A DNA stretch of 64,000 bases from Morinoia aosen (lineage: Eukaryota; Arthropoda; Malacostraca; Amphipoda; Talitridae). The DNA is taken from positions 20,370,484 through 20,434,483 of the forward strand of contig CM059579.1 in assembly GCA_030386875.1 (NCBI GenBank), written 5' to 3'. This document shows, one piece after another, positions 29,228 to 64,000 of the stretch; positions within the stretch are counted from its first letter, which is position 1, and each line of letters begins with the position of its first letter. Made by a program: the position numbers and the translations under genes. The notes under the pieces are model-generated. The model was not told where the DNA came from. It ran no database searches and saw only the letters and a list, made by a program, of their open reading frames with translations.

Positions 29228-29230
<3 letters not shown>

Positions 29231-29266
<36 letters not shown>
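29231..29266. repeat. (GT)18 microsatellite
   Basis: An uninterrupted GT run of 36 bases. Confidence 0.98.

Positions 29267-29268
<2 letters not shown>

Positions 29269-35953: not shown

Positions 35954-35985
<32 letters not shown>
35954..35985. repeat. (ATT)n microsatellite
   Basis: About ten ATT repeats, directly left of a family 1 copy. Confidence 0.95.
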
Positions 35986-35987
<2 letters not shown>

Positions 35988-35989
35988 AG

Positions 35990-36336: not shown

Positions 36337-36839
36337 AAAGCTGTTACAACTGCCGAGGTTTGATGGATACAATGGGGTTTATTAGAGCTTCCGTGCCCTG
36401 GTTGGTGTCCATGCCACGAGTCAGCTCGGTGGTTGCCTCCTGTCTTGGCTTAGTCCTCCGTGCAGACAGCGGGAAAACTCACGAATTTCACACCGGTGTA
36501 TGATAAAATATGTAGCCCCGCTTGACTAAAGATAATGGCGAGACCATAGTAACAACTTAGTTATCCAAAGAAAATAAATCAATCGAAGTTGAAACTTTAG
36601 TTTTTCTCAGTTCTCACCATCTTTCAGTCACTGTACTGTGTGTTATTGTCATATTTGGCCAACAATAATGGTTATTGGCCTAAGCTGCTCGCGTCGCTTC
36701 AAATGACCTCTATACGTATAATTTATCTAACAACCAAATTTTACGACAACATAAAAACATAGCTCGCATTGATTCGCATATCTTCGCGCTCCCGGTACAT
36801 TTTGGCATCATTTATGAACTTTCACCTTATTTCTGAAAC
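36337..36839. other. Unique sequence, no gene seen
   Basis: Nothing recognised. Confidence 0.5.
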
Positions 36840-37040
36840 ACGCACCGCGTTTTTGCGACGATACCGTGGAGTCAAGAAACTCTCACGGTGCACGGAGGGC
36901 ACGCGGTGCCGCCGGTGCGGGGCTGAGGCCCGAAATGAATATTCAAATTTAAGGCATCACAGCTACGCGGAGATCGTTAGCGCGCATCGCTTACTGGGAC
37001 GGCGTCGCCTCGCGCCCTCACGGCGTAGGAATTAGCTCAC
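36840..37040. other. GC- and CpG-rich island next to the 20-bp array
   Basis: About 200 bases with many CG dinucleotides (CGCACCGCGTTTTTGCGACG, GGTGCCGCCGGTGCGGGGC, GCGTCGCCTCGCG) in otherwise AT-rich DNA. An 88-codon + frame (36,769-37,035) covers it but ends in Arg-rich sequence of no known family. It could be a promoter-like island or an exon; I cannot tell which. Confidence 0.4.
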
Positions 37041-37440
37041 GGCTGCTGCAGGCACAGACGGCTGTGTGCAGGCACAAACAGCTGTGTGCAGACACGGACG
37101 GCTTCTGCAGGCACGGACGGCTGCTGCAGGCACGGACGGCTGCACGCAGGCACGGACGGCTGTGTGCAGGCACGGACGGCTGCACGCAGGCACGGACGGC
37201 TGCACGCAGGCACGGACGGCTGTGTGCAGGCACGGACAGCTGTGTGCAGGCACGGACAGCTGCTGCAGGCACGGACGGCTGGTGCAGGTACGGACGGCTG
37301 CTGCAGGCACGAACAGCTGTGTGCAGGCACGGACGACTGTGTGCAGGCACGGACGACTGTGTGCAGGCACGGACGGCTGAGTGCAGGCACGGACGGCTGT
37401 GTGCAGGCACGGACGGCTGCACGCAGGCATGGACAGCAGC
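37041..37440. repeat. 20-bp minisatellite, about 20 units
   Basis: The unit is close to GGCACGGACGGCTGTGTGCA. The six bases after the central GGCTG differ between units (TGTGCA, CTGCA, CACGCA), so GCTGCTGCAGG, GCTGCACGCAGG and GCTGTGTGCAGG forms alternate. Twenty is not a multiple of three, yet several frames on both strands remain open for more than 100 codons, which shows how low-complexity DNA produces spurious frames. Confidence 0.96.
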
Positions 37441-40200: not shown

Positions 40201-40380
40201 ATCTTTGAGTCAAAAATAGTAGATTTGAATGAAAAATGGCAATTTTTGAGTGAAATTAGAAGCTTTCGAGTCAGAAATGGCAGCATTTGAATCAAAAGAT
40301 ACAGTTTCAGTTAGAAATGGAAGTTTCCTATTCAAAAATAAGACTTTGGAATCAAAAATGGCAATTTACGAGTACGAGGA
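40201..40380. repeat. Degenerate 21-bp tandem repeat, 8-9 units
   Basis: Units such as TTTGAGTCAAAAATAG, ATTTGAATGAAAAATGGCAA, TTTCGAGTCAGAAATGGCAG and TTTGGAATCAAAAATGGCAA follow each other with 19-22-bp spacing and heavy divergence. Confidence 0.8.
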
Positions 40381-40668
40381 ATAAGTCGCATACAATATAG
40401 CATTTGCAAAATCACTTCCAGTCCAGGCGAGTCGAGTGAACGACTTCCATTAGGAAATGAACAGTTCAGAAATCATCGACTGCATGGCCTCAACACTTCG
40501 TCTTCATTTCGTGATTTAGATCCCGCAAACTGCTGCTGAAGTCCGTAGCTCTGCAATGTCCGTGCCAACTGTGGCGTTTCCTCATATGCCATTGGTGCCT
40601 GCTCGATCATGGTATTCTCGTGGTAGAACCAAATGAGCTGTAGAGTTGAAATACTTTATTAATATTAA

Positions 40669-41000
40669 AAATCCCTCAGTAGGGTAGAACACTGCATCTA
40701 TGAGAAGTAGGGGTTCCAGTAGGAAAACATGAAGTCCCGAGCTGAAGGTTAGGTAGGCCTTCTTCTTGTTTGAATTAAATAGGGTTTTATTGTGTTCCGG
40801 ATGGATTCTTTTTCGATTCAATTTTTTTTTTTGTAATTAACCCTATTTCACAAATTTTGTTGTGCGTTATGAACCTCTGTTAGCCTTGCTGTTTCAAGGC
40901 AGAAGATGCAGGGACGCTTTTTGTGCATAGATTCTCTATTCCATTATTTCTATAACCAAACGGTGTCTTCCTCCCTTCTCTTTTGAGAATACTTGCGTCG
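40669..41000 (-). repeat. Interspersed repeat family 1, inverted copy
   Basis: On the minus strand the blocks occur in family order: a CTTTGGAACG-type start here degraded to AAAGAGAAGGGAGGAAG, then AATAGAGAATCTATGCACAA, GGCCTACCTAACCTTCAGCT and CTACTGAGGGAT. It is the only inverted copy I noticed. Confidence 0.6.
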
Positions 41001-41044
41001 AGTATAAAGCCGCTTTTGGAAATTTATAATCACATGCTCAATTT

Positions 41045-41300
41045 TACATTGTTACCTGATGTGACACTGCAACCTAATTTGATGCAGTTGCCTAATATGG
41101 CATACAAATCTAATTTGATGCAGTTACCTAATTTGGCATTGAGATCTAATTAGATGCAGTTACTTACCAAGACATTGCTGCCTAATTAGGCTTTGATGCC
41201 TAATTTGATGCGGTAACTAATTTGGTATTGATGTCTAATATGACGCAGTTATTTCATTTGACATTACTGCCCAATTTAAATCAAAGACACTAATTTAACA
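41045..41300. repeat. Degenerate dimeric repeat, 19+17 bp, about 7 dimers
   Basis: Half-units alternate between AGTTACCTAATTTGGCATT and GAGATCTAATTAGATGC types, giving a period near 36 bp. Every half-unit is built on a CTAATTTG core. Divergence is high. Confidence 0.8.
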
Positions 41301-42134
41301 CCGGGTACTTGTGGGCTATCTATCGCCACTTTTTTGGATTTACTTTAAGGTTACTTGAAAACTTTACTCGAGTAAATCTATCGCATTTTGTTGGTTGTAA
41401 ATGAATACAAATGCTGAGTAATAAAATATGAAGTAATAATGTAGCTAAAATTAGGTTTCGTCAATCATTAATAAAAGCAGGAATTGACTACCCAGAATAT
41501 GTACAAACAAAGGCCCATAATACACTTGTTAAGGGACAATTTATGGTTTGCAAAAATTGGAAACTTCTGTTTTACATAAAGAATAATCGGCAGAGATTAA
41601 AATTAATAAAGATTATTAAGAATTCAATTAAGCTAACCTACCTTTAACTTGACCTTAACATCAAAAGGAAGCCATAAATTAAAAGTGGTGACAGATAACC
41701 CAGAAGTACATGACACTTATTTAAAATATAACATTGTATCTTACCTTATGCAAAATTCTAAAACTTTTGCTGTACTTTCTCAAAATTAATATTTAAATAA
41801 GGTAAAAATCCTATCCAACGCACGGCCCTACCACAATTCAAGATAGTTGGTGTTTCTTTCCAAGTAGAAATTATGTCTAACGAGAAGAACTTTTTCTTCA
41901 AATGCGTCCGCTGCGAAATGGAAAATGCATGCGCTAGTCGAATGCACACAAAATTACTGATCAAATGATTCATGTGGGACAGGTAGAATCGAGTCTCTTT
42001 CAAAGCTTTGAGCTTCTGCAATCGCATAAAACCAATAACAACTGCCGAGAGCACTCAGCAACTCACGTACTCATAGAACAGTTCCAAAACACCTCCGCTC
42101 GAAGCTCATGATGTGCATGGAAGGTGAGATTAGA
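41301..42134. other. AT-rich unique sequence, no gene seen
   Basis: A 98-codon minus frame (41,758-42,054) has no recognisable domain. Confidence 0.5.
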
Positions 42135-42190
42135 TGATAATTTAAGCCTTCCTAACCGCAACCAAGCGTTCCAAACAGAGGATAATGCGC
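42135..42190 (+). repeat. Interspersed repeat family 1, 5' fragment
   Basis: TTTAAGCCTTCCTAACCGCA, AAGCGTTCCAAACAGAGG and ATAATGCGCTC match the start of the longer copy 120 bp downstream, then similarity ends. Confidence 0.55.
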
Positions 42191-42257
42191 TCAGAAATAT
42201 GACCAGCCAACTATTGTTTACCCCCCGCTGCATCGTGCACAAATGAGTTAGGCACAT

Positions 42258-42560
42258 TTACTTCAGATTAGGTTAGATAAGTTAGTTTAAGCGACCCTAA
42301 CGGCAACAAAAGCGTTCCAAAGAGAGAAATGATTAGGGCGCCACTTAGTATGGAGTTAAGAAAACTAGCATTTTAAGCACGAGGTATGTTCCCTCACACA
42401 AGATCCTCTGCGTATAGAAACAGGAAGTTTGGAAGGAAGGCTATGAAGCAAGAAAAAAGTTAAAGAAGAAGGCTAGAGGTGTAGAAATATAAGACAGTAG
42501 TGAACCAAAAAACATGGTCTTTAACAAATCCAAATCATATTTTAATTCAACAAAAAGAAA
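42258..42560 (+). repeat. Interspersed repeat family 1 copy
   Basis: Begins TTCAGATTAGGTTAGATAAG and includes AAAGCGTTCCAAAGAGAG, CCACTTAGTATGGAGTTAAG, GAGGTATGTTCCCTC, GCGTATAGAAACAGGAAG and CAGTAGTGAACCAAAAAACA. It lacks the terminal GAGGGG block. Confidence 0.75.
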
Positions 42561-43221
42561 TATTTACATGTGCATTTACTTCAAATAACCGCGAACACAA
42601 CGGCCACAGTGACTGGCGTAAAGACTGTCATTTACGAAAACACTCAGTAGCTGCTGCGTTTAGCCAGGCGCCTGCGAGTAGAACTGGAAGTCATAAGAAA
42701 ACTGAGGGGTTGCATGACGACGCCGCCACTTGTACAGACGGACGAAACTGGGAGCAATAAGCGCCCCTCGTGGTGGCCTCCTAAACTTTGCAAGCGTTCG
42801 ACGAACTCCGGTTGTCAGCTATAGAATTATTAGCTCTAATTTCACAAGAAGCGAGTTAATTAAAAGCGTATTTTGAGGATGCAATAACTTCATTGATCTC
42901 ATAAGGCGACGCGACTTGCGGGCGGCCGTGATTCCTCAGATCTGATTCACTCGGCGGCAGCGCAGCATGACTTGATTGGGAGCGCGGCGACGGGATTATT
43001 TCTCGGTCACCTCTCACCAGTCGAAACTAATTTCAGGCGCAGCGCACTCCAAAGCAACTTATCCTGTTGCTGACGCTCCTCATGAAGTTATTGATAAATT
43101 GATATCAGGCTTGGCATCTTTACCTGGACTTTATTTGGGCTGTGTGACTTAACAGGCTGGGGGAAGAGAAAAGGGAGCTTGAAATTCAGGTAGAATTAAG
43201 GTTGAACAAATACGGCTGAGA
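42561..43221. other. Unique flank left of the giant array
   Basis: Moderately GC-rich around 42,620-43,030 (GGCGACGCGACTTGCGGGCG, CTCGGCGGCAGCGCAGC). An 86-codon + frame (42,500-42,760) has no known domain. This is the only unique anchor for the array in the window. Confidence 0.5.
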
Positions 43222-43230
43222 GGGGGGGGG
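43222..43230. repeat. G9 tract at the left edge of the array
   Basis: Nine consecutive G on the + strand separate unique DNA from the first 32-bp unit. No comparable run occurs inside the array. Confidence 0.9.
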
Positions 43231-44456
43231 CTCAACACAACCAGCAGTGAGGCAGAGAGAGGCACAACACAACCAGCAGTGAGGCACAGAAAGGCACAAC
43301 ACAACCAGCAGTGAGGCAGAGGGAGGCACAACACAACCAGCAGTGAGGCAGAGGGAGGCACAACACAACCAGCAGTGAGGCAGAGGAAGGCACAACACAA
43401 CCAGCAGTGAGGCAGAGGGAGGCACAACACAACCAGCAGTGAGGCAGAGAGAGACACAACACAACCAGCAGTGAGGCAGAGAGAGGCACAACACAACCAG
43501 CAGTGAGGCAGAGAGAGACACAACACAACCAGCAGTGAGGCAGAGAGAGGCACAACACAACCAGCAGTGAGGCAGAGGAAGGCACAACACAACCAGCAGT
43601 GAGGCAGAAAGAGGCACAACACAACCAGCAGTGAGGCAGAGAGAGACACAACACAACCAGCAGTGAGGCACAGAAAGGCACAACACAACCAGCAGTGAGG
43701 CAGAGAGAGGCACAACACAACCAGCAGTGAGGCAGAGGAAGGCACAACACAACCAGCAGTGAGGCAGAGGGAGGCACAACACAACCAGCAGTGAGGCAGA
43801 GAGAGACACAACACAACCAGCAGTGAGGCAGAGAGAGACACAACACAACCAGCAGTGAGGCAGAGGAAGGCACAACACAACCAGCAGTGAGGCAGAGGGA
43901 GGCACAACACAACCAGCAGTGAGGCAGAGAGAGGCACAACACAACCAGCAGTGAGGCAGAGGAAGGCACAACACAACCAGCAGTGAGGCAGAGGGAGGCA
44001 CAACACAACCAGCAGTGAGGCAGAGAGAGACACAACACAACCAGCAGTGAGGCAGAGAGAGACACAACACAACCAGCAGTGAGGCAGAGAGAGACACAAC
44101 ACAGCCAGCAGTGAGGCAGAGAGAGACACAACACAACCAGCAGTGAGGCAGAGGGAGACACAACACAACCAGCAGTGAGGCAGAGAGAGACACAACACAA
44201 CCAGCAGTGAGGCAGAGAGAGACAACACAACCAGCAGTGAGGCAGAGGAAGGCACAACACAACCAGCAGTGAGGCAGAAGGAGGCACAACACAACCAGCA
44301 GTGAGGCAGAGAGAGGCACAACACAACCAGCAGTGAGGCAGAGAAAGGCACAACACAACCAGCAGTGAGGCAGAGGGAGGCAAAGCACAACCAGCAGTGA
44401 GGCAGAGAAAGGCACAACACAACCAGCAGTGAGGCACAGAAAGGTACAACACAATT

Positions 44457-47400
44457 AGCAGTGAGGCAGAGAGAGACACAACACAACCAGCAGTGAGGCA
44501 CAGAAAGGCACAACACAACCAGCAGTGAGGAACAGAAAGGTACAACACAATTAGCAGTGAGGCAGAGGGAGGCACAACACAACCAGCAGTGAGGCAGAGA
44601 GAGGCACAACACAACCAGCAGTGAGGCAGAGAAAGGCACAACACAACCAGCAGTGAGGCAGAGGGAGGCAAAACACAACCAGCAGTGAGGCAGAGAAAGG
44701 CACAACACAACCAGCAGTGAGGCAGAGAGAGACACAACACAGCCAGCAGTGAGGCAGAGAGAGACACAACACAACCAGCAGTGAGGCAGAGGGAGACACA
44801 ACACAACCAGCAGTGAGGCAGAGAGAGACACAACACAACCAGCAGTGAGGCAGAGAGAGACAACACAACCAGCAGTGAGGCAGAGGGAGGCACAACACAA
44901 CCAGCAGTGAGGCAGAGGGAGGCACAACACAACCAGCAGTGGGGCAGAGGGAGGCACAACACAACCAGCAGTGAGGCAGAGGGAGGCACAACACAACCAG
45001 CAGTGAGGCAGAGAGAGACACAACACAACCAGCAGTGAGGCAGAGGGAGGCACAACACAACCAGCAGTGAGGCAGAGGGAGGCACAACACAACCAGCAGT
45101 GAGGCAGAGAGAGACACAACACAACCAGCAGTGAGGCAGAGGGAGGCACAACACAACCAGCAGTGAGGCAGAGAGAGGCACAACACAACCAGCAGTGGGG
45201 CAGAGGGAGGCACAACACAACCAGCAGTGAGGCAGAGGGAGGCACAACACAACCAGCAGTGGGGCAGAGGGAGGCACAACACAACCAGCAGTGAGGCAGA
45301 GGGAGGCACAACACAACCAGCAGTGAGGCAGAGAGAGGCACAACACAACCAGCAGTGAGGCAGAGAGAGACACAACACAACCAGCAGTGAGGCAGAGAGA
45401 GGCACAACACAACCAGCAGTGGAGCAGAGGGAGGCACAAAACAACCAGCAGTGAGGCTGAGAGAGGCACAACACAACCAGCAGTGAGGCAGAGAGAGGCA
45501 CAACACAACCAGCAGTGAGGCAGAGAGAGACACAACACAACCAGCAGTGAGGCAGAGAGAGGCACAACACAACCAGCAGTGGGGCAGAGGTAGGCACAAA
45601 ACAACCAGCAGTGAGGCAGAGAGAGACACAACACAACCAGCAGTGAGGCAGAGAGAGACACAACACAACCAGCAGTGAGGCAGAGAGAGGCACAACACAA
45701 CCAGCAGTGAGGCAGAGAGAGGCACAACACAACCAGCAGTGAGGCAGAGAGAGGCACAACACAACCAGCAGTGGGGCAGAGGGAGGCACAAAACAACCAG
45801 CAGTGAGGCAGAGAGAGGCACAACACAACCAGCAGTGAGGCAGAGAGAGACACAACAAAACCAGCAGTGAGGCAGAGAGAGACACAACACAACCAGCAGT
45901 GAGGCAGAGAGAGACACAACACAACCAGCAGTGAGGCAGAGAGAGACACAACACAACCAGCAGTGAGGCAGAGAGAGGCACAACACAACCAGCAGTGGGG
46001 CAGAGGGAGGCACAAAACAACCAGCAGTGAGGCAGAGAGAGACACAACACAACCAGCAGTGAGGCAGAGAGAGGCACAACACAACCAGCAGTGAGGCAGA
46101 GAGAGGCACAACACAACCAGCAGTGAGGCAGAGGGAGGCACAACACAACCAGCAGTGAGGCAGAGGGAGGCACAACACAACCAGCAGTGGGGCAGAGGGA
46201 GGCACAACACAACCAGCAGTGGGGCAGAGGGAGGCACAACACAACCAGCAGTGAGGCAGAGAGAGGCACAACACAACCAGCAGTGGGGCAGAGGGAGGCA
46301 CAAAACAACCAGCAGTGAGGCAGAGAGAGGCACAACACAACCCGCAGTGAGGCAGAGAGAGGCACAACACAACCAGCAGTGAGGCAGAGAGAGGCACAAC
46401 ACAACCAGCAGTGAGGCAGAGGGAGGCACAACACAACCAGCAGTGAGGCAGAGGGAGGCACAACACAACCAGCAGTGAGGCAGAGGGAGGCACAACACAA
46501 CCAGCAGTGAGGCAGAGGGAGGCACAACACAACCAGCAGTGGGGCAGAGGGATGCACAACACAACCAGCAGTGGGGCAGAGGGAGGCACAACACAACCAG
46601 CAGTGAGGCAGCGAGAGACACAACACAACCAGCAGTGAGGCAGAGAGAGGCACAACACAACCAGCAGTGAGGCAGAGAGAGACACAACAAAACCAGCAGT
46701 GAGGCAGAGAGAGACACAACACAACCAGCAGTGAGGCAGAGAGAGACACAACACAACCAGCAGTGAGGCAGAGAGAGACACAACACAACCAGCAGTGAGG
46801 CAGAGAGAGGCACAACACAACCAGCAGTGGGGCAGAGGGAGGCACAAAACAACCAGCAGTGAGGCAGAGAGAGACACAACACAACCAGCAGTGAGGCAGA
46901 GAGAGGCACAACACAACCAGCAGTGAGGCAGAGAGAGGCACAACACAACCAGCAGTGAGGCAGAGGGAGGCACAACACAACCAGCAGTGAGGCAGAGGGA
47001 GGCACAACACAACCAGCAGTGGGGCAGAGGGAGGCACAACACAACCAGCAGTGGGGCAGAGGGAGGCACAACACAACCAGCAGTGAGGCAGAGAGAGGCA
47101 CAACACAACCAGCAGTGGGGCAGAGGGAGGCACAAAACAACCAGCAGTGAGGCAGAGAGAGGCACAACACAACCCGCAGTGAGGCAGAGAGAGGCACAAC
47201 ACAACCAGCAGTGAGGCAGAGAGAGGCACAACACAACCAGCAGTGAGGCAGAGGGAGGCACAACACAACCAGCAGTGAGGCAGAGGGAGGCACAACACAA
47301 CCAGCAGTGAGGCAGAGGGAGGCACAACACAACCAGCAGTGAGGCAGAGAGAGGCACAACACAACCAGCAGTGAGGCAGAGAGAGACACAACACAACCAG

Positions 47401-47612
47401 CAGTGAGGCAGCGAGAGACACAACACAACCAGCAGTGAGGCACAACACAACCAGCAGTGGGGCAGAGGGAGGCACAACACAACCAGCAGTGGGGCAGAGG
47501 GAGGCACAACACAACCAGCAGTGGGGCAGAGGGAGGCACAACACAACCAGCAGTGAGGCAGAGGGAGGCACAACACAACCAGCAGTGAGGCAGAGAGAGG
47601 CACAACACAACC
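44457..47612. repeat. 3,156-bp higher-order block, copy 1
   Basis: This block repeats immediately at 47,613-50,768. Its length equals 97 units of 32 bp plus one 30-bp and one 22-bp unit, and both odd units recur at the same place in copy 2. Marker variants shared at +3,156 include ACAATTAGCA (44,547/47,703), GGAGCAGAGG (45,421/48,577) and AACCCGCAG (46,339/49,495). Similarity stops at the edges given. Confidence 0.9.
45794..46515. repeat. About 720-bp sub-block repeated at 832-bp spacing
   Basis: It matches 46,626-47,347 at an offset of exactly 26 units (832 bp). Markers are the CAACAAAACC unit (45,853/46,685) and the two successive GGGGCAGAGGGAGG units followed by an AACCCGCAG unit. Because it lies inside the 3,156-bp block, the pair also recurs in copy 2. 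Confidence 0.85.
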
Positions 47613-50600
47613 AGCAGTGAGGCAGAGAGAGACACAACACAACCAGCAGTGAGGCACAGAAAGGCACAACACAACCAGCAGTGAGGAACAGAAAGGTACA
47701 ACACAATTAGCAGTGAGGCAGAGGGAGGCACAACACAACCAGCAGTGAGGCAGAGAGAGGCACAACACAACCAGCAGTGAGGCAGAGAAAGGCACAACAC
47801 AACCAGCAGTGAGGCAGAGGGAGGCAAAACACAACCAGCAGTGAGGCAGAGAAAGGCACAACACAACCAGCAGTGAGGCAGAGAGAGACACAACACAGCC
47901 AGCAGTGAGGCAGAGAGAGACACAACACAACCAGCAGTGAGGCAGAGGGAGACACAACACAACCAGCAGTGAGGCAGAGAGAGACACAACACAACCAGCA
48001 GTGAGGCAGAGAGAGACAACACAACCAGCAGTGAGGCAGAGGGAGGCACAACACAACCAGCAGTGAGGCAGAGGGAGGCACAACACAACCAGCAGTGGGG
48101 CAGAGGGAGGCACAACACAACCAGCAGTGAGGCAGAGGGAGGCACAACACAACCAGCAGTGAGGCAGAGAGAGACACAACACAACCAGCAGTGAGGCAGA
48201 GGGAGGCACAACACAACCAGCAGTGAGGCAGAGGGAGGCACAACACAACCAGCAGTGAGGCAGAGAGAGACACAACACAACCAGCAGTGAGGCAGAGGGA
48301 GGCACAACACAACCAGCAGTGAGGCAGAGAGAGGCACAACACAACCAGCAGTGGGGCAGAGGGAGGCACAACACAACCAGCAGTGAGGCAGAGGGAGGCA
48401 CAACACAACCAGCAGTGGGGCAGAGGGAGGCACAACACAACCAGCAGTGAGGCAGAGGGAGGCACAACACAACCAGCAGTGAGGCAGAGAGAGGCACAAC
48501 ACAACCAGCAGTGAGGCAGAGAGAGACACAACACAACCAGCAGTGAGGCAGAGAGAGGCACAACACAACCAGCAGTGGAGCAGAGGGAGGCACAAAACAA
48601 CCAGCAGTGAGGCTGAGAGAGGCACAACACAACCAGCAGTGAGGCAGAGAGAGGCACAACACAACCAGCAGTGAGGCAGAGAGAGACACAACACAACCAG
48701 CAGTGAGGCAGAGAGAGGCACAACACAACCAGCAGTGGGGCAGAGGTAGGCACAAAACAACCAGCAGTGAGGCAGAGAGAGACACAACACAACCAGCAGT
48801 GAGGCAGAGAGAGACACAACACAACCAGCAGTGAGGCAGAGAGAGGCACAACACAACCAGCAGTGAGGCAGAGAGAGGCACAACACAACCAGCAGTGAGG
48901 CAGAGAGAGGCACAACACAACCAGCAGTGGGGCAGAGGGAGGCACAAAACAACCAGCAGTGAGGCAGAGAGAGGCACAACACAACCAGCAGTGAGGCAGA
49001 GAGAGACACAACAAAACCAGCAGTGAGGCAGAGAGAGACACAACACAACCAGCAGTGAGGCAGAGAGAGACACAACACAACCAGCAGTGAGGCAGAGAGA
49101 GACACAACACAACCAGCAGTGAGGCAGAGAGAGGCACAACACAACCAGCAGTGGGGCAGAGGGAGGCACAAAACAACCAGCAGTGAGGCAGAGAGAGACA
49201 CAACACAACCAGCAGTGAGGCAGAGAGAGGCACAACACAACCAGCAGTGAGGCAGAGAGAGGCACAACACAACCAGCAGTGAGGCAGAGGGAGGCACAAC
49301 ACAACCAGCAGTGAGGCAGAGGGAGGCACAACACAACCAGCAGTGGGGCAGAGGGAGGCACAACACAACCAGCAGTGGGGCAGAGGGAGGCACAACACAA
49401 CCAGCAGTGAGGCAGAGAGAGGCACAACACAACCAGCAGTGGGGCAGAGGGAGGCACAAAACAACCAGCAGTGAGGCAGAGAGAGGCACAACACAACCCG
49501 CAGTGAGGCAGAGAGAGGCACAACACAACCAGCAGTGAGGCAGAGAGAGGCACAACACAACCAGCAGTGAGGCAGAGGGAGGCACAACACAACCAGCAGT
49601 GAGGCAGAGGGAGGCACAACACAACCAGCAGTGAGGCAGAGGGAGGCACAACACAACCAGCAGTGAGGCAGAGGGAGGCACAACACAACCAGCAGTGGGG
49701 CAGAGGGATGCACAACACAACCAGCAGTGGGGCAGAGGGAGGCACAACACAACCAGCAGTGAGGCAGCGAGAGACACAACACAACCAGCAGTGAGGCAGA
49801 GAGAGGCACAACACAACCAGCAGTGAGGCAGAGAGAGACACAACAAAACCAGCAGTGAGGCAGAGAGAGACACAACACAACCAGCAGTGAGGCAGAGAGA
49901 GACACAACACAACCAGCAGTGAGGCAGAGAGAGACACAACACAACCAGCAGTGAGGCAGAGAGAGGCACAACACAACCAGCAGTGGGGCAGAGGGAGGCA
50001 CAAAACAACCAGCAGTGAGGCAGAGAGAGACACAACACAACCAGCAGTGAGGCAGAGAGAGGCACAACACAACCAGCAGTGAGGCAGAGAGAGGCACAAC
50101 ACAACCAGCAGTGAGGCAGAGGGAGGCACAACACAACCAGCAGTGAGGCAGAGGGAGGCACAACACAACCAGCAGTGGGGCAGAGGGAGGCACAACACAA
50201 CCAGCAGTGGGGCAGAGGGAGGCACAACACAACCAGCAGTGAGGCAGAGAGAGGCACAACACAACCAGCAGTGGGGCAGAGGGAGGCACAAAACAACCAG
50301 CAGTGAGGCAGAGAGAGGCACAACACAACCCGCAGTGAGGCAGAGAGAGGCACAACACAACCAGCAGTGAGGCAGAGAGAGGCACAACACAACCAGCAGT
50401 GAGGCAGAGGGAGGCACAACACAACCAGCAGTGAGGCAGAGGGAGGCACAACACAACCAGCAGTGAGGCAGAGGGAGGCACAACACAACCAGCAGTGAGG
50501 CAGAGAGAGGCACAACACAACCAGCAGTGAGGCAGAGAGAGACACAACACAACCAGCAGTGAGGCAGCGAGAGACACAACACAACCAGCAGTGAGGCACA

Positions 50601-50768
50601 ACACAACCAGCAGTGGGGCAGAGGGAGGCACAACACAACCAGCAGTGGGGCAGAGGGAGGCACAACACAACCAGCAGTGGGGCAGAGGGAGGCACAACAC
50701 AACCAGCAGTGAGGCAGAGGGAGGCACAACACAACCAGCAGTGAGGCAGAGAGAGGCACAACACAACC
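47613..50768. repeat. 3,156-bp higher-order block, copy 2
   Basis: Tandem partner of 44,457-47,612. In the segments compared I saw no difference between the two, which suggests very recent duplication or an assembly duplication. Confidence 0.9.
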
Positions 50769-53700
50769 AGCAGTGGGGCAGAGGGAGGCACAACACAACC
50801 AGCAGTGAGGCAGAGGGAGGCACAACACAACCAGCAGTGGGGCAGAGGGAGGCACAACACAACCAGCAGTGAGGCAGAGGGAGGCACAACACAATTAGCA
50901 GTGAGGCAGAGAGAGGCACAACACAACCAGCAGTGAGGCAGAGAGAGACACAACACAACCAGCAGTGAGGCAGAGAGAGGCACAACACAACCAGTAGTGG
51001 GGCAGAGAGAGGCACAACACAACCAGCAGTGGGGCAGAGGGAGGCACAAAACAACCAGCAGTGAGGCAGAGAGAGGCACAACACAACCAGCAGTGAGGCA
51101 GAGAGAGGCACAACACAACCAGCAGTGAGGCAGAGAGAGACACAACACAACCAGCAGTGAGGCAGAGAGAGGCACAACACAACCAGCAGTAGGGCAGAGG
51201 GAGGCACAAAACAACCAGCAGTGAGGCAGAGAGAGACACAACACAACCAGCAGTGAGGCAGAGAGAGACACAACACAACCAGCAGTGAGGCAGAGAGAGG
51301 CACAACACAACCAGCAGTGAGGCAGAGAGAGGCACAACACAACCAGCAGTGAGGCAGAGAGAGGCACAACACAACCAGCAGTGGGGCAGAGGGAGGCACG
51401 AAACAACCAGCAGTGAGGCAGAGAGAGACACAACACAACCAGCAGTGAGGCAGAGAGAGACACAACACAACCAGCAGTGAGGCAGAGAGAGGCACAACAC
51501 AACCAGCAGTGGGGCAGAGAGAGGCACAACACACCCAGCAGTGGGGCAGAGGGAGGCACAACACAACCAGCAGTGAGGCAGAGGGAGACACAACACAACC
51601 AGCAGTGAGGCAGAGGGAGACACAACACAACCAGCAGTGAGGCAGAGGGAGGCACAACACAACCAGCAGTGAGGCAGAGGGAGGCACAACACAACCAGCA
51701 GTGAGGCAGAATGAGACACAACACAACCAGCAGTGATGCAGAGGGAGACACAACACAACCAGCAGTGAGGCAGAGGGAGGCACAACACAACCATCAGTGA
51801 GGCAGAGAGAGACACAACGCAACCAGCAGTGGGGCAGAGAGAGACACAACACAACCAGCAGTGAGGCAGAGGGAGGCACAACACAACCAGCAGTGAGGCA
51901 GAGAGAGACACAACGCAACCAGCAGTGGGGCAGAGAGAGACACAACACAACCAGCAGTGAGGCAGAGAGAGACACAACACAACCAGCAGTGAGGCAGAGG
52001 GAGGCACAACACAACCAGCAGTGAGGCAGAGAGAGACACAACGCAACCAGCAGTGGGGCAGAGAGAGACACAACACAACCAGCAGTGAGGCAGAGGGAGA
52101 CACAACACAACCAGCAGTGAGGCAGAATGAGACACAACACAACCAGCAGTGAGGCAGAGGGAGGCACAACACAACCAGCAGTGAGGCAGAGGGAGGCACA
52201 ACACAACCAGCAGTGAGGCAGAGAGAGACACAACACAACCAGCAGTGAGGCAGAGAGAGACACAACACAACCAGCAGTGGGGCAGAGAGAGGCACAACAC
52301 AACCAGCAGTGAGGCAGAGGGAGGCACAACACAACCAGCAGTGAGGCAGAGAGAGACACAACACAACCAGCAGTGAGGCAGAGAGAGACACAACACAACC
52401 AGCAGTGGGGCAGAGAGAGGCACAACACAACCAGCAGTGAGGCAGAGGGAGGCACAACACAACCAGCAGTGGGGCAGAGGGAGGCACAACACAACCAGCA
52501 GTGAGGCAGAGGGAGGCACAACACAACCAGCAGTGGGGCAGAGAGAGGCACAACACAACCAGCAGTGAGGCAGAGGGAGGCACAACACAACCAGCAGTGA
52601 GGCAGAGGGAGGCACAACACAACCAGCAGTGAGGCAGAATGAGACACAACACAACCAGCAGTGAGGCAGAGGGAGACGCAACACAACCAGCAGTGGGGCA
52701 GAGAGAGACACAACACAACCAGCAGTGAGGCAGAGAGAGACACAACACAACCAGCAGTGAGGCAGAGAGAGACACAACGCAACCAGCAGTGGGGCAGAGA
52801 GAGACACAACACAACCAGCAGTGAGGCAGAGAGAGACACAACACAACCAGCAGTGAGGCAGAGAGAGACACAACACAACCAGCAGTGAGGCAGAGGGAGG
52901 CACAACACAACCAGCAGTGAGGCAGAGGGAGGCACAACACAACCAGCAGTGAGGCAGAGGGAGGCACAACACAACCAGCAGTGAGGCAGAGAGAGACACA
53001 ACACAACCAGCAGTGAGGCAGAGGGAGGCACAACACAACCAGCAGTGAGGCAGAGAGAGACACAACACAACCAGCAGTGAGGCAGAGGGAGGCACAACAC
53101 AACCAGCAGTGAGGCAGAGAGAGACACAACACAACCAGCAGTGAGGCAGAGAGAGACACAACACAACCAGCAGTGAGGCAGAGAGAGACACAACACAACC
53201 AGCAGTGAGGCAGAGAGAGACACAACACAACCAGCAGTGGGGCAGAGGGAGGCACAACACAACCAGCAGTGAGGCAGAGGGAGACACAACACAACCAGCA
53301 GTGAGGCAGAGAGAGACACAACACAACCAGCAGTGAGGCAGAGAGAGACACAACACAACCAGCAGTGAGGCAGAGAGAGACACAACACAACCAGCAGTGG
53401 GGCAGAGGGAGGCACAACACAACCAGCAGTGAGGCAGAGGGAGACACAACACAACCAGCAGTGGGGCAGAGGGAGGCACAACACAACCAGCAGTGAGGCA
53501 GAGGGAGGCACAACACAACCAGCAGTGAGGCAGAGAGAGACACAACACAACCAGCAGTGAGGCAGAGAGAGACACAACACAACCAGCAGTGGGGCAGAGG
53601 GAGACACAACACAACCAGCAGTGGGGCAGAGAGAGACACAACACAACCAGCAGTGAGGCAGAGAGAGACACAACACAACCAGCAGTGAGGCAGAGAGAGA

Positions 53701-55532
53701 CACAACACAACCAGCAGTGGGGCAGAGGGAGACACAACACAACCAGCAGTGAGGCAGAGAGAGACACAACACAACCAGCAGTGGGGCAGAGGGAGGCACA
53801 ACACAACCAGCAGTGAGGCAGAGGGAGGCACAACACAACCAGCAGTGAGGCAGAGAGAGACACAACACAACCAGCAGTGAGGCAGAGAGAGACACAACAC
53901 AACCAGCAGTGAGGCAGAGAGAGACACAACACAACCAGCAGTGGGGCAGAGGGAGGCACAACACAACCAGCAGTGAGGCAGAGGGAGACACAACACAACC
54001 AGCAGTGAGGCAGAGAGAGACACAACACAACCATCAGTGAGGCAGAGAGAGACACAACACAACCAGCAGTGAGGCAGAGGGAGGCACAACACAACCAGCA
54101 GTGAGGCAGAGAGAGACACAACACAACCAGCAGTGGGGCAGAGGGAGGCACAACACAACCAGCAGTGAGGCAGAGGGAGGCACAACACAACCAGCAGTGG
54201 GGCAGAGAGAGACACAACACAACCAGCAGTGAGGCAGAGGGAGGCACAACACAACCAGCAGTGAGGCAGAGAGAGACACAACACAACCAGCAGTGGGGCA
54301 GAGGGAGGCACAACACAACCAGCAGTGAGGCAGAGGGAGGCACAACACAACCAGCAGTGAGGCAGAGAGAGACACAACACAACCAGCAGTGAGGCAGAGA
54401 GAGACACAACACAACCAGCAGTGAGGCAGAGGGAGGCACAACACAACCAGCAGTGGGGCAGAGAGAGACACAACACAACCAGCAGTGAGGCAGAGAGAGA
54501 CACAACACAACCAGCAGTGAGGCAGAGGGAGGCACAACACAACCAGCAGTGAGGCAGAGAGAGACACAACACAACCAGCAGTGAGGCAGAGAGAGACACA
54601 ACACAACCAGCAGTGAGGCAGAGAGAGACACAACACAACCAGCAGTGGGGCAGAGGGAGGCACAACACAACCAGCAGTGAGGCAGAGGGAGACACAACAC
54701 AACCAGCAGTGAGGCAGAGGGAGGCACAACACAACCAGCAGTGAGGCAGAGAGAGACACAACACAACCAGCAGTGAGGCAGAGAGAGACACAACACAACC
54801 AGCAGTGAGGCAGAGAGAGACACAGCACAACCAGCAGTGGGGCAGAGGGAGGCACAACACAACCAGCAGTGAGGCAGAGGGAGACACAACACAACCAGCA
54901 GTGGGGCAGAGGGAGGCACAACACAACCAGCAGTGAGGCAGAGGGAGACACAACACAACCAGCAGTGAGGCAGAGGGAGGCACAACACAACCAGCAGTGA
55001 GGCAGAGGGAGACACAACACAACCAGCAGTGAGGCAGAGAGAGACACAACACAACCATCAGTGAGGCAGAGAGAGACACAACACAACCAGCAGTGAGGCA
55101 GAGGGAGGCACAACACAACCAGCAGTGAGGCAGAGAGAGACACAACACAACCAGCAGTGAGGCAGAGGGAGGCACAACACAACCAGCAGTGAGGCAGAGA
55201 GAGACACAACACAACCAGCAGTGAGGCAGAGAGAGACACAACACAACCAGCAGTGAGGCAGAGAGAGACACAACACAACCAGCAGTGTGGCAGAGAGAGA
55301 CACAACACAACCAGCAGTGAGGCAGAGGGAGACACAACACAACCAGCAGTGAGGCAGAGGGAGGCACAACACAACCAGCAGTGAGGCAGAGAGAGACACA
55401 ACACAACCAGCAGTGAGGCAGAGAGAGACACAACACAACCAGCAGTGAGGCAGAGAGAGACACAGCACAACCAGCAGTGGGGCAGAGGGAGGCACAACAC
55501 AACCAGCAGTGAGGCAGAGGGAGACACAACAC
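48911..55532. repeat. 6.6-kb block duplicated at 8,470-bp spacing, copy 1
   Basis: It matches 57,381-64,000. The spacing equals 264 units plus the one 22-bp unit. Seven differences were noticed by eye: 50,880/59,350, 50,995/59,465, 51,534/60,004, 49,925/58,395, 50,507/58,977, 52,934/61,404, and a 2-base loss near 62,581 that changes the offset to 8,468. Confidence 0.9.
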
Positions 55533-56657
55533 AACCAGCAGTGGGGCAGAGGGAGGCACAACACAACCAGCAGTGAGGCAGAGGGAGACACAACACAACC
55601 AGCAGTGAGGCAGAGGGAGGCACAACACAACCAGCAGTGAGGCAGAGGGAGACACAACACAACCAGCAGTGAGGCAGAGAGAGACACAACACAACCATCA
55701 GTGAGGCAGAGAGAGACACAACACAACCAGCAGTGAGGCAGAGGGAGGCACAACACAACCAGCAGTGAGGCAGAGAGAGACACAACACAACCAGCAGTGG
55801 GGCAGAGGGAGGCACAACACAACCAGCAGTGAGGCAGAGGGAGGCACAACACAACCAGCAGTGGGGCAGAGAGAGACACAACACAACCAGCAGTGAGGCA
55901 GAGGGAGGCACAACACAACCAGCAGTGAGGCAGAGGGAGGCACAACACAACCAGCAGTGAGGCAGAGAGAGACACAACACAACCAGCAGTGAGGCAGAGA
56001 GAGACACAACACAACCAGCAGTGAGGCAGAGGGAGGCACAACACAACCAGCAGTGGGGCAGAGAGAGACACAACACAACCAGCAGTGAGGCAGAGAGAGA
56101 CACAACACAACCAGCAGTGAGGCAGAGGGAGGCACAACACAACCAGCAGTGAGGCAGAGAGAGACACAACACAACCAGCAGTGAGGCAGAGAGAGACACA
56201 ACACAACCAGCAGTGAGGCAGAGAGAGACACAACACAACCAGCAGTGGGGCAGAGGGAGGCACAACACAACCAGCAGTGAGGCAGAGGGAGACACAACAC
56301 AACCAGCAGTGAGGCAGAGGGAGGCACAACACAACCAGCAGTGAGGCAGAGAGAGACACAACACAACCAGCAGTGAGGCAGAGAGAGACACAACACAACC
56401 AGCAGTGAGGCAGAGAGAGACACAACACAACCAGCAGTGGGGCAGAGGGAGGCACAACACAACCAGCAGTGAGGCAGAGGGAGACACAACACAACCAGCA
56501 GTGGGGCAGAGGGAGGCACAACACAACCAGCAGTGAGGCAGAGGGAGACACAACACAACCAGCAGTGAGGCAGAGGGAGGCACAACACAACCAGCAGTGA
56601 GGCAGAGGGAGACACAACACAACCAGCAGTGAGGCAGAGAGAGACACAACACAACCA
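55058..56657. repeat. Tandem sub-blocks of 640 and 960 bp marked by CCATCAG units
   Basis: The rare unit variant CCATCAG (consensus CCAGCAG) occurs at 51,791, 54,031, 55,055, 55,695, 56,655, 60,261, 62,501 and 63,523. Spacings of 1,024, 640 and 960 bp are exact multiples of 32. The sequence left of each marker is similar, and the block ending at 56,655 looks like an expanded version of the one ending at 55,695. Confidence 0.8.
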
Positions 56658-57380
56658 TCAGTGAGGCAGAGAGAGACACAACACAACCAGCAGTGAGGCA
56701 GAGGGAGGCACAACACAACCAGCAGTGAGGCAGAGAGAGACACAACACAACCAGCAGTGGGGCAGAGGGAGGCACAACACAACCAGCAGTGAGGCAGAGG
56801 GAGGCACAACACAACCAGCAGTGGGGCAGAGAGAGACACAACACAACCAGCAGTGAGGCAGAGGGAGGCACAACACAACCAGCAGTGAGGCAGAGAGAGA
56901 CACAACACAACCAGCAGTGGGGCAGAGGGAGGCACAACACAACCAGCAGTGAGGCAGAGGGAGGCACAACACAACCAGCAGTGAGGCAGAGAGAGACACA
57001 ACACAACCAGCAGTGAGGCAGAGGGAGGCACAACACAACCAGCAGTGAGGCAGAGGGAGGCACAACACAACCAGCAGTGAGGCAGAGAGAGACACAACAC
57101 AACCAGCAGTGAGGCAGAGGGAGGCACAACACAACCAGCAGTGAGGCAGAGAGAGACACAACACAACCAGCAGTGAGGCAGAGGGAGGCACAACACAACC
57201 AGCAGTGAGGCAGAGGGAGGCACAACACAACCAGCAGTGGGGCAGAGAGAGACACAACACAACCAGCAGTGGGGCAGAGAGAGACACAACACAACCAGCA
57301 GTGGGGCAGAGAGAGACACAACACAACCAGCAGTGGGGCAGAGAGAGACACAACACAACCAGCAGTGGGGCAGAGAGAGA

Positions 57381-60300
57381 CACAACACAACCAGCAGTGG
57401 GGCAGAGGGAGGCACAAAACAACCAGCAGTGAGGCAGAGAGAGGCACAACACAACCAGCAGTGAGGCAGAGAGAGACACAACAAAACCAGCAGTGAGGCA
57501 GAGAGAGACACAACACAACCAGCAGTGAGGCAGAGAGAGACACAACACAACCAGCAGTGAGGCAGAGAGAGACACAACACAACCAGCAGTGAGGCAGAGA
57601 GAGGCACAACACAACCAGCAGTGGGGCAGAGGGAGGCACAAAACAACCAGCAGTGAGGCAGAGAGAGACACAACACAACCAGCAGTGAGGCAGAGAGAGG
57701 CACAACACAACCAGCAGTGAGGCAGAGAGAGGCACAACACAACCAGCAGTGAGGCAGAGGGAGGCACAACACAACCAGCAGTGAGGCAGAGGGAGGCACA
57801 ACACAACCAGCAGTGGGGCAGAGGGAGGCACAACACAACCAGCAGTGGGGCAGAGGGAGGCACAACACAACCAGCAGTGAGGCAGAGAGAGGCACAACAC
57901 AACCAGCAGTGGGGCAGAGGGAGGCACAAAACAACCAGCAGTGAGGCAGAGAGAGGCACAACACAACCCGCAGTGAGGCAGAGAGAGGCACAACACAACC
58001 AGCAGTGAGGCAGAGAGAGGCACAACACAACCAGCAGTGAGGCAGAGGGAGGCACAACACAACCAGCAGTGAGGCAGAGGGAGGCACAACACAACCAGCA
58101 GTGAGGCAGAGGGAGGCACAACACAACCAGCAGTGAGGCAGAGGGAGGCACAACACAACCAGCAGTGGGGCAGAGGGATGCACAACACAACCAGCAGTGG
58201 GGCAGAGGGAGGCACAACACAACCAGCAGTGAGGCAGCGAGAGACACAACACAACCAGCAGTGAGGCAGAGAGAGGCACAACACAACCAGCAGTGAGGCA
58301 GAGAGAGACACAACAAAACCAGCAGTGAGGCAGAGAGAGACACAACACAACCAGCAGTGAGGCAGAGAGAGACACAACACAACCAGCAGTGAGGTAGAGA
58401 GAGACACAACACAACCAGCAGTGAGGCAGAGAGAGGCACAACACAACCAGCAGTGGGGCAGAGGGAGGCACAAAACAACCAGCAGTGAGGCAGAGAGAGA
58501 CACAACACAACCAGCAGTGAGGCAGAGAGAGGCACAACACAACCAGCAGTGAGGCAGAGAGAGGCACAACACAACCAGCAGTGAGGCAGAGGGAGGCACA
58601 ACACAACCAGCAGTGAGGCAGAGGGAGGCACAACACAACCAGCAGTGGGGCAGAGGGAGGCACAACACAACCAGCAGTGGGGCAGAGGGAGGCACAACAC
58701 AACCAGCAGTGAGGCAGAGAGAGGCACAACACAACCAGCAGTGGGGCAGAGGGAGGCACAAAACAACCAGCAGTGAGGCAGAGAGAGGCACAACACAACC
58801 CGCAGTGAGGCAGAGAGAGGCACAACACAACCAGCAGTGAGGCAGAGAGAGGCACAACACAACCAGCAGTGAGGCAGAGGGAGGCACAACACAACCAGCA
58901 GTGAGGCAGAGGGAGGCACAACACAACCAGCAGTGAGGCAGAGGGAGGCACAACACAACCAGCAGTGAGGCAGAGAAAGGCACAACACAACCAGCAGTGA
59001 GGCAGAGAGAGACACAACACAACCAGCAGTGAGGCAGCGAGAGACACAACACAACCAGCAGTGAGGCACAACACAACCAGCAGTGGGGCAGAGGGAGGCA
59101 CAACACAACCAGCAGTGGGGCAGAGGGAGGCACAACACAACCAGCAGTGGGGCAGAGGGAGGCACAACACAACCAGCAGTGAGGCAGAGGGAGGCACAAC
59201 ACAACCAGCAGTGAGGCAGAGAGAGGCACAACACAACCAGCAGTGGGGCAGAGGGAGGCACAACACAACCAGCAGTGAGGCAGAGGGAGGCACAACACAA
59301 CCAGCAGTGGGGCAGAGGGAGGCACAACACAACCAGCAGTGAGGCAGAGAGAGGCACAACACAATTAGCAGTGAGGCAGAGAGAGGCACAACACAACCAG
59401 CAGTGAGGCAGAGAGAGACACAACACAACCAGCAGTGAGGCAGAGAGAGGCACAACACAACCAGCAGTGGGGCAGAGAGAGGCACAACACAACCAGCAGT
59501 GGGGCAGAGGGAGGCACAAAACAACCAGCAGTGAGGCAGAGAGAGGCACAACACAACCAGCAGTGAGGCAGAGAGAGGCACAACACAACCAGCAGTGAGG
59601 CAGAGAGAGACACAACACAACCAGCAGTGAGGCAGAGAGAGGCACAACACAACCAGCAGTAGGGCAGAGGGAGGCACAAAACAACCAGCAGTGAGGCAGA
59701 GAGAGACACAACACAACCAGCAGTGAGGCAGAGAGAGACACAACACAACCAGCAGTGAGGCAGAGAGAGGCACAACACAACCAGCAGTGAGGCAGAGAGA
59801 GGCACAACACAACCAGCAGTGAGGCAGAGAGAGGCACAACACAACCAGCAGTGGGGCAGAGGGAGGCACGAAACAACCAGCAGTGAGGCAGAGAGAGACA
59901 CAACACAACCAGCAGTGAGGCAGAGAGAGACACAACACAACCAGCAGTGAGGCAGAGAGAGGCACAACACAACCAGCAGTGGGGCAGAGAGAGGCACAAC
60001 ACAACCAGCAGTGGGGCAGAGGGAGGCACAACACAACCAGCAGTGAGGCAGAGGGAGACACAACACAACCAGCAGTGAGGCAGAGGGAGACACAACACAA
60101 CCAGCAGTGAGGCAGAGGGAGGCACAACACAACCAGCAGTGAGGCAGAGGGAGGCACAACACAACCAGCAGTGAGGCAGAATGAGACACAACACAACCAG
60201 CAGTGATGCAGAGGGAGACACAACACAACCAGCAGTGAGGCAGAGGGAGGCACAACACAACCATCAGTGAGGCAGAGAGAGACACAACGCAACCAGCAGT

Positions 60301-63300
60301 GGGGCAGAGAGAGACACAACACAACCAGCAGTGAGGCAGAGGGAGGCACAACACAACCAGCAGTGAGGCAGAGAGAGACACAACGCAACCAGCAGTGGGG
60401 CAGAGAGAGACACAACACAACCAGCAGTGAGGCAGAGAGAGACACAACACAACCAGCAGTGAGGCAGAGGGAGGCACAACACAACCAGCAGTGAGGCAGA
60501 GAGAGACACAACGCAACCAGCAGTGGGGCAGAGAGAGACACAACACAACCAGCAGTGAGGCAGAGGGAGACACAACACAACCAGCAGTGAGGCAGAATGA
60601 GACACAACACAACCAGCAGTGAGGCAGAGGGAGGCACAACACAACCAGCAGTGAGGCAGAGGGAGGCACAACACAACCAGCAGTGAGGCAGAGAGAGACA
60701 CAACACAACCAGCAGTGAGGCAGAGAGAGACACAACACAACCAGCAGTGGGGCAGAGAGAGGCACAACACAACCAGCAGTGAGGCAGAGGGAGGCACAAC
60801 ACAACCAGCAGTGAGGCAGAGAGAGACACAACACAACCAGCAGTGAGGCAGAGAGAGACACAACACAACCAGCAGTGGGGCAGAGAGAGGCACAACACAA
60901 CCAGCAGTGAGGCAGAGGGAGGCACAACACAACCAGCAGTGGGGCAGAGGGAGGCACAACACAACCAGCAGTGAGGCAGAGGGAGGCACAACACAACCAG
61001 CAGTGGGGCAGAGAGAGGCACAACACAACCAGCAGTGAGGCAGAGGGAGGCACAACACAACCAGCAGTGAGGCAGAGGGAGGCACAACACAACCAGCAGT
61101 GAGGCAGAATGAGACACAACACAACCAGCAGTGAGGCAGAGGGAGACGCAACACAACCAGCAGTGGGGCAGAGAGAGACACAACACAACCAGCAGTGAGG
61201 CAGAGAGAGACACAACACAACCAGCAGTGAGGCAGAGAGAGACACAACGCAACCAGCAGTGGGGCAGAGAGAGACACAACACAACCAGCAGTGAGGCAGA
61301 GAGAGACACAACACAACCAGCAGTGAGGCAGAGAGAGACACAACACAACCAGCAGTGAGGCAGAGGGAGGCACAACACAACCAGCAGTGAGGCAGAGGGA
61401 GGCCCAACACAACCAGCAGTGAGGCAGAGGGAGGCACAACACAACCAGCAGTGAGGCAGAGAGAGACACAACACAACCAGCAGTGAGGCAGAGGGAGGCA
61501 CAACACAACCAGCAGTGAGGCAGAGAGAGACACAACACAACCAGCAGTGAGGCAGAGGGAGGCACAACACAACCAGCAGTGAGGCAGAGAGAGACACAAC
61601 ACAACCAGCAGTGAGGCAGAGAGAGACACAACACAACCAGCAGTGAGGCAGAGAGAGACACAACACAACCAGCAGTGAGGCAGAGAGAGACACAACACAA
61701 CCAGCAGTGGGGCAGAGGGAGGCACAACACAACCAGCAGTGAGGCAGAGGGAGACACAACACAACCAGCAGTGAGGCAGAGAGAGACACAACACAACCAG
61801 CAGTGAGGCAGAGAGAGACACAACACAACCAGCAGTGAGGCAGAGAGAGACACAACACAACCAGCAGTGGGGCAGAGGGAGGCACAACACAACCAGCAGT
61901 GAGGCAGAGGGAGACACAACACAACCAGCAGTGGGGCAGAGGGAGGCACAACACAACCAGCAGTGAGGCAGAGGGAGGCACAACACAACCAGCAGTGAGG
62001 CAGAGAGAGACACAACACAACCAGCAGTGAGGCAGAGAGAGACACAACACAACCAGCAGTGGGGCAGAGGGAGACACAACACAACCAGCAGTGGGGCAGA
62101 GAGAGACACAACACAACCAGCAGTGAGGCAGAGAGAGACACAACACAACCAGCAGTGAGGCAGAGAGAGACACAACACAACCAGCAGTGGGGCAGAGGGA
62201 GACACAACACAACCAGCAGTGAGGCAGAGAGAGACACAACACAACCAGCAGTGGGGCAGAGGGAGGCACAACACAACCAGCAGTGAGGCAGAGGGAGGCA
62301 CAACACAACCAGCAGTGAGGCAGAGAGAGACACAACACAACCAGCAGTGAGGCAGAGAGAGACACAACACAACCAGCAGTGAGGCAGAGAGAGACACAAC
62401 ACAACCAGCAGTGGGGCAGAGGGAGGCACAACACAACCAGCAGTGAGGCAGAGGGAGACACAACACAACCAGCAGTGAGGCAGAGAGAGACACAACACAA
62501 CCATCAGTGAGGCAGAGAGAGACACAACACAACCAGCAGTGAGGCAGAGGGAGGCACAACACAACCAGCAGTGAGGCAGAGAGACACAACACAACCAGCA
62601 GTGGGGCAGAGGGAGGCACAACACAACCAGCAGTGAGGCAGAGGGAGGCACAACACAACCAGCAGTGGGGCAGAGAGAGACACAACACAACCAGCAGTGA
62701 GGCAGAGGGAGGCACAACACAACCAGCAGTGAGGCAGAGAGAGACACAACACAACCAGCAGTGGGGCAGAGGGAGGCACAACACAACCAGCAGTGAGGCA
62801 GAGGGAGGCACAACACAACCAGCAGTGAGGCAGAGAGAGACACAACACAACCAGCAGTGAGGCAGAGAGAGACACAACACAACCAGCAGTGAGGCAGAGG
62901 GAGGCACAACACAACCAGCAGTGGGGCAGAGAGAGACACAACACAACCAGCAGTGAGGCAGAGAGAGACACAACACAACCAGCAGTGAGGCAGAGGGAGG
63001 CACAACACAACCAGCAGTGAGGCAGAGAGAGACACAACACAACCAGCAGTGAGGCAGAGAGAGACACAACACAACCAGCAGTGAGGCAGAGAGAGACACA
63101 ACACAACCAGCAGTGGGGCAGAGGGAGGCACAACACAACCAGCAGTGAGGCAGAGGGAGACACAACACAACCAGCAGTGAGGCAGAGGGAGGCACAACAC
63201 AACCAGCAGTGAGGCAGAGAGAGACACAACACAACCAGCAGTGAGGCAGAGAGAGACACAACACAACCAGCAGTGAGGCAGAGAGAGACACAGCACAACC

Positions 63301-64000
63301 AGCAGTGGGGCAGAGGGAGGCACAACACAACCAGCAGTGAGGCAGAGGGAGACACAACACAACCAGCAGTGGGGCAGAGGGAGGCACAACACAACCAGCA
63401 GTGAGGCAGAGGGAGACACAACACAACCAGCAGTGAGGCAGAGGGAGGCACAACACAACCAGCAGTGAGGCAGAGGGAGACACAACACAACCAGCAGTGA
63501 GGCAGAGAGAGACACAACACAACCATCAGTGAGGCAGAGAGAGACACAACACAACCAGCAGTGAGGCAGAGGGAGGCACAACACAACCAGCAGTGAGGCA
63601 GAGAGAGACACAACACAACCAGCAGTGAGGCAGAGGGAGGCACAACACAACCAGCAGTGAGGCAGAGAGAGACACAACACAACCAGCAGTGAGGCAGAGA
63701 GAGACACAACACAACCAGCAGTGAGGCAGAGAGAGACACAACACAACCAGCAGTGTGGCAGAGAGAGACACAACACAACCAGCAGTGAGGCAGAGGGAGA
63801 CACAACACAACCAGCAGTGAGGCAGAGGGAGGCACAACACAACCAGCAGTGAGGCAGAGAGAGACACAACACAACCAGCAGTGAGGCAGAGAGAGACACA
63901 ACACAACCAGCAGTGAGGCAGAGAGAGACACAGCACAACCAGCAGTGGGGCAGAGGGAGGCACAACACAACCAGCAGTGAGGCAGAGGGAGACACAACAC
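57381..64000. repeat. 6.6-kb block, copy 2, continues past the window
   Basis: The left junction lies immediately after a run of five identical GGGGCAGAGAGAGACAC units (57,239-57,390), a run not seen elsewhere in the array. The block is still matching copy 1 at position 64,000, so its true length is unknown. Confidence 0.9.

Follow-up and report, generated by a model that had tools for sequence, protein, structure and literature searches.

The window analysed here is a stretch of 64,000 nucleotides (C24:20370484-20434483) on a 93.96-Mb contig of the 1.99-Gb, 29-contig assembly of Morinoia aosen. Its right-hand part is occupied by a tandem array of 32-bp units. TRF finds it as a single array at window positions 43229-64000, with 650.3 copies, 94% matches and 0% indels, and gives the consensus unit as GGCACAACACAACCAGCAGTGAGGCAGAGAGA. 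An earlier note on this DNA had described about 650 units that start at 43232 and run off the window. The count agrees and the array is real; only its start shifts, by 3 bp to the left. It does run off the window, yet by only 1,015 bp: the right end was located by TRF on the downstream stretch L009, which begins at the window end. The next 160 kb were fetched and joined to the window. Taken from the TRF ends with the pieces analysed separately, the length of the array is 21,787 bp; in the joined stretch it is 21,789 bp, too great for chance to be an issue. Coordinates are collected in Table 1.

The units follow one another without interruption. Of 649 unit spacings in the window, 642 are 32 bp, four are 30 bp and three are 22 bp. 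Because no unit-to-unit gap is longer than 32 bp, nothing is inserted in the array, and the earlier description of head-to-tail 32-bp units free of foreign DNA is confirmed. The whole array contains 682 units (674 of 32 bp, four of 30 bp, three of 22 bp and a last, partial unit of 29 bp), which fall into 47 types, 11 of them single-copy. The average divergence of full-length units from the consensus is 4.1%, and the mean difference in a random sample of unit pairs is 5.5%. The plus strand of the array contains 3.3% T, and no inverted repeat of at least 14 bp was found in window positions 43000-64000.

Table 1. Features of the 32-bp array and its surroundings. Positions without prefix are those of the window; L009 is numbered from its own first base.
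Feature	Position	Strand	Remarks
Whole 32-bp minisatellite array	C24:20413712-20435498		21,787 bp, 682 units; TRF ends and unit parsing
32-bp array, portion in window	43229..64000	+	TRF, unit parsing; extends to L009:1015
Left head of array	43229..44456	+	Not part of an exact internal repeat 320 bp long or longer
3,156-bp tandem duplication (99 units), first copy	44457..47619	+	3,163 bp identical to the stretch 3,156 bp downstream
3,156-bp duplication, second copy	47613..50775	+	
725-bp exact repeat, lag 832 bp (26 units)	45793..46517	+	Nested within the 3,156-bp block
22-bp truncated unit (10 bp short)	47421..47442	+	Further copies at 50577 and 59047; spacing equals both block lags
8,470-bp block (265 units), first copy	48913..57382	+	
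8,470-bp block, second copy	57383..64000	+	Carries on beyond the window until the array ends
piggyBac-type transposase, DDE_Tnp_1_7	L009:2335-3405	-	E 7e-84, profile 1-348 of 349; some 1.3 kb past the right end of the array
Second giant array, 66 bp x 202, 13.3 kb	87722-101046 from window start (L011-L012, start of L013)		98% matches (TRF)
Minisatellite, 63-bp unit	16734-17671		TRF
Minisatellite, 87-bp unit	18601-20482		TRF
Minisatellite, 21-bp unit	20802-21123		TRF
Minisatellite, 20-bp unit	37039-37437		TRF

The surroundings are rich in tandem repeats. In the joined 224 kb, TRF reports 69 arrays of period at least 10, which cover 51.9 kb (23%). By simple arithmetic the coverage falls to about 9% once two giants are removed: the 32-bp array and a 66-bp array that starts 22.7 kb after it and whose unit is a dimer of about 33 bp. 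Thirteen arrays, at 6.9% coverage, occur in nine 4-kb samples scattered over other contigs. Minisatellites are thus generally common in this genome, the 36 kb of scattered samples being too small for the frequency of giants. Among the 99 arrays scanned in all (290 kb) the median length is 128 bp, and the two giants stand out.

Several other observations were made in passing. Periods that are a multiple of 3 are over-represented, accounting for 18 of the 26 arrays with at least eight copies (p 2e-4 if one third is expected), 26 of the 41 with at least 3.5 copies (p 8e-5) and 44 of all 99 (p 0.014), in a post hoc test on a small sample (window, L009-L027, L034-L042) of arrays that are partly non-independent. 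Two 21-bp units look by eye like reverse complements of each other. A dispersed repeat family, about 61-82% like its reference copies and marked by a word like AAAAAGATGGTCCGTAACAAAA, occurs at window positions 27-225, 3355-3557, 9086-9204, 36097-36306 and 42416-42534; it is perhaps a SINE or MITE. The ratio of observed to expected CpG ranges from 0.59 to 1.01 in 4-kb bins before window position 44000.

Is the array confined to this place? A 25-bp core of the unit, allowed at most one mismatch, has 649 forward and no reverse matches in the 1.99-Gb assembly, a search that is blind to units more than one mismatch away from the core. The same core counted locally on the window, L009 and L010 also gives 649 matches, 453 of them exact, spanning 43233 to 64987. 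Since the two counts are equal, the array accounts for all matches in the assembly. The 400 bp of left flank likewise match only themselves. Some 20.4 Mb separate the array from the nearer end of its contig, and no run of telomere repeats occurs in the first 20 kb of that contig, so that the true chromosome end can only lie further off. In the assembly the array is therefore a single-locus minisatellite, neither subtelomeric nor a member of a dispersed satellite family: the distance to the contig end rules out the former and the genome-wide core count the latter. (A telomere-like run is visible elsewhere: the first 10 kb of contig C2 carry 499 copies of CCTAA after 7,500 N, and the abstract of PMC8977481 names TTAGG as the arthropod telomere motif.)

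These results bear on what the earlier note had proposed for the array, namely a heterochromatic, subtelomeric or sex-linked satellite block or else a very large variable-number locus. The subtelomeric placement falls with the 20.4 Mb. A heterochromatic block would find no support in the sequence, given an array of 21.8 kb, 649 core matches that are all its own, and a left flank present once. It might still be asked whether the array is the visible piece of such a block, most of whose copies were collapsed or are missing in the assembly. It is long, uninterrupted and highly homogeneous (a mean pairwise unit difference of 5.5%), as a satellite piece might be, and copies left unassembled would escape searches of the assembly. 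This reading is nonetheless very unlikely: both array ends lie within one contig, 21.8 kb apart, far from the contig end; the core matches number the same in assembly and array; and the next best arrays, on contigs C5, C21 and C25, have other units. The single-locus part of the variable-number proposal stands, and in that part it is the best fit of the four alternatives.

Those next best arrays came from a similarity search with the start of the array, which returned 47 weaker matches of 71-77% identity on C5, C21 and C25. The search passed over the array itself, so very common words had been left out by it. The units of the three arrays differ, at 31, 10 and 25 bp respectively. That of C5 aligns with the 32-bp unit at a score of 37, which was reached by one of 2,000 shuffles, and that of C25 has the same score of 37; both had been picked as the best in a minisatellite-rich genome. 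Common descent of these units with the 32-bp unit is neither claimed nor excluded.

Another candidate lies within the window. A 33-bp array of 31 copies at 24545-25577 runs on the opposite strand and has GGAGGC(T/A)CAACACAA in common with the 32-bp unit. Among 68 arrays it gave the best alignment with that unit, at a score that one of 400 mononucleotide and none of 400 dinucleotide shuffles reached; in an earlier run one of 100 shuffles did. To judge from sequence likeness, the two arrays possibly share a local seed. Their shared 15-mer has 21 genomic occurrences, of which 17 fall in the 33-bp array; this rules out a dispersed seed motif for this word.

Each minus-strand frame of the array holds a long open run (at most 2,555, 2,853 and 2,108 codons), as would be expected if the array were part of a repetitive protein-coding exon on that strand. 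The plus strand is T-poor, however, which makes minus-strand stops rare by composition and accounts for the long open frames. Even so, 15 such stops are present (five, four and six by frame); the unit length of 32 bp is not divisible by 3, and the length changes of 2 and 10 bp shift the frame. The only domain found in the flanks outside minisatellites (window 28201-43202 and L009:1016-9999) is the downstream piggyBac-type transposase. An exon here is hardly credible. A protein-coding repeat across the array was rejected, since stops occur in all six frames (on the plus strand they number 189, 186 and 181) and no frame is continuous from end to end.

A six-frame Pfam scan of window positions 1-43202, with X at stops and E up to 0.05, gave two matches, both within other minisatellites: HV_Gp350_C-term in the 21-bp array (E 0.003, below its cut-off) and Mucin-like in the 33-bp array (E 1.4e-7, above its cut-off). 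In our reading both are composition effects of the repeats. In L009:1016-9999 the PT disordered repeat matches two frames of a 12-bp array. No RNA family reached its gathering score in window positions 1-44000, and there is no tRNA or tmRNA in the window. Nor does the array's own folding stand out. As single strands, four of four stretches of the unit folded no better than shuffles (z +1.3 to +3.1, with +2.5 and +3.1 on the plus strand), and hairpins therefore do not explain instability; the idea that hairpins drive it is unsupported.

How, then, did a 32-bp unit come to be repeated 682 times? We labelled the units by type and compared the order of types along the array with that in 20 shuffles of unit order. 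Eighteen segments in the window score at least 12, the best of them 178; the best score in each shuffle lies between 5 and 8. Exact repeats 320 bp long or longer make up 93.1% of the array's length, leaving the left 1.2 kb and short patches uncovered, and the longest exact repeat in the shuffles is 191-279 bp. An A-to-G variant at unit position 18 (read from CAACAC) is missing from the first 50 units, to about 44830, and present in every later block of 50 units. This nested block structure, absent from the earlier note, shows that the array grew mainly by tandem duplication of large blocks. Such duplication readily yields the observed block pattern, which slippage of single units does not readily produce by itself.

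Two events can be ordered. At a lag of 99 units (3,156 bp), none of 98 units differs. At a lag of 265 units (8,470 bp), seven of 211 aligned units differ; at base level there are six substitutions in the first 5,174 bp and then a 2-bp length difference. After the 211 units the lag shifts from 265 to 237 units, and the match then reaches almost to the right end of the array. The 8,470-bp copies thus differ by 28 units, either through loss in the second or through gain in the first. The two 3,156-bp copies each depart from the second 8,470-bp copy at two units, and these are the same in both. Because they share these differences, the 3,156-bp duplication is the younger and the 8,470-bp event preceded it, unless later conversion or homogenisation erased differences. 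If about 3e-9 mutations arise per site and generation, as in insects, the 8,470-bp event would be roughly 150,000-200,000 generations old.

Blocks this similar invite the suspicion that they are artefacts of assembly and that the true array is shorter, for instance about 10-12 kb, which would still be compatible with a minisatellite locus. The 3,156-bp copies show no difference over 3,163 bp, near-identical blocks are open to mis-counting, the full 21.8-kb array exceeds many long reads, and 500 N occur in the stretch 59-69 kb downstream. But the 8,470-bp copies are distinct sequences, since they differ in seven of 211 units and by 28 units in length, and the nested 832-bp blocks repeat the same habit at a scale that reads can span. 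We consider an artefact quite unlikely.

Duplication of large blocks usually proceeds by unequal sister exchange or mispaired repair synthesis, and one or the other is probably the mechanism here. In outline, a short local seed would have given rise to the array. Blocks of tens to hundreds of units would then have duplicated in tandem, with lags of 26, 99 and 265 units, until about 21.8 kb was reached, smaller length changes and point changes being overlaid on these duplications. Exchange between sister chromatids out of register, or mispaired repair synthesis, may have driven the block events.

A bolder reading takes the whole stretch as a hotspot of runaway block amplification. Two giant arrays of unrelated units (21.8 and 13.3 kb) lie 22.7 kb apart in it, and the larger would have copied large parts of itself twice, some 100 to 265 units per event, through break-induced or rolling-circle re-copying, for instance, instead of single-unit slippage, with a copy divergence of about 0.1% or less. 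This seems unlikely. The neighbouring 66-bp array is giant, interstitial and homogeneous like the 32-bp array. Its AT-rich unit is a different one, and because its longest exact internal repeat is 659 bp it has no block duplication of comparable size.

We favour a plainer account, to which we give a probability of about 0.88: the array is a non-coding, single-locus minisatellite of the VNTR type, interstitial in a large chromosome, that has grown mainly by tandem block duplication. Its unit size and its confinement to one locus make it a minisatellite. Human hypervariable minisatellites such as MS32 reach a size similar to that of the 21.8-kb array. Against the few hundred bp that are usual according to the relevant part of one review (PMC12692304), the earlier statement that it is much longer than an ordinary minisatellite does hold, though that length is typical of minisatellites and does not define them. 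The same part gives units of 11-60 bp, and a section of another review gives 10-100 bp (PMC7767330); here the unit is 32 bp, exactly so in 674 of 682 cases, and the 682 units are head to tail, of 47 types, with no core match on the reverse strand. Classical satellite DNA, described in an excerpt of PMC10048060 as megabase-long heterochromatic arrays, is abundant in the genome, whereas all 649 core matches in this assembly lie in the array. From what these portions of the three reviews say, the boundaries between minisatellites and satellites are loose (PMC12692304, PMC7767330, PMC10048060).

Like the human VNTR loci MS32, CEB1 and MSY1, which in the pertinent passages of PMC2599865 have tandem units of 9-100 bp, the array contains variant units. 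Those passages report that MS32 and CEB1 mutants in blood are mostly simple deletions or duplications and that sperm mutants are more often complex (PMC2599865). Simple duplication is the type of event seen in the 32-bp array, known from one assembly, which in this resembles the blood mutants and not the sperm mutants. MSY1 has a predicted hairpin, as far as that account goes, whereas the 32-bp unit shows no folding advantage over shuffles. Satellite DNA with higher-order repeats is also tandem and homogeneous and duplicates many units block-wise, but such satellites extend over megabases, whereas this array occupies 21.8 kb at one locus and has its large blocks in two copies each instead of in regular higher-order arrays of many copies.

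The earlier observation was real and correctly described, and the array is ordinary in kind and exceptional in length. It shows no sign of a new function or system and probably has no function. Judged from one assembly, it is a candidate for length variation between individuals. Its interest lies in its growth: a few large and recent block duplications can bring a single-locus minisatellite to the length of a small satellite block without its spreading in the assembly. The array is thus a readable record of how a tandem repeat grows, as well as a candidate marker of high variability.
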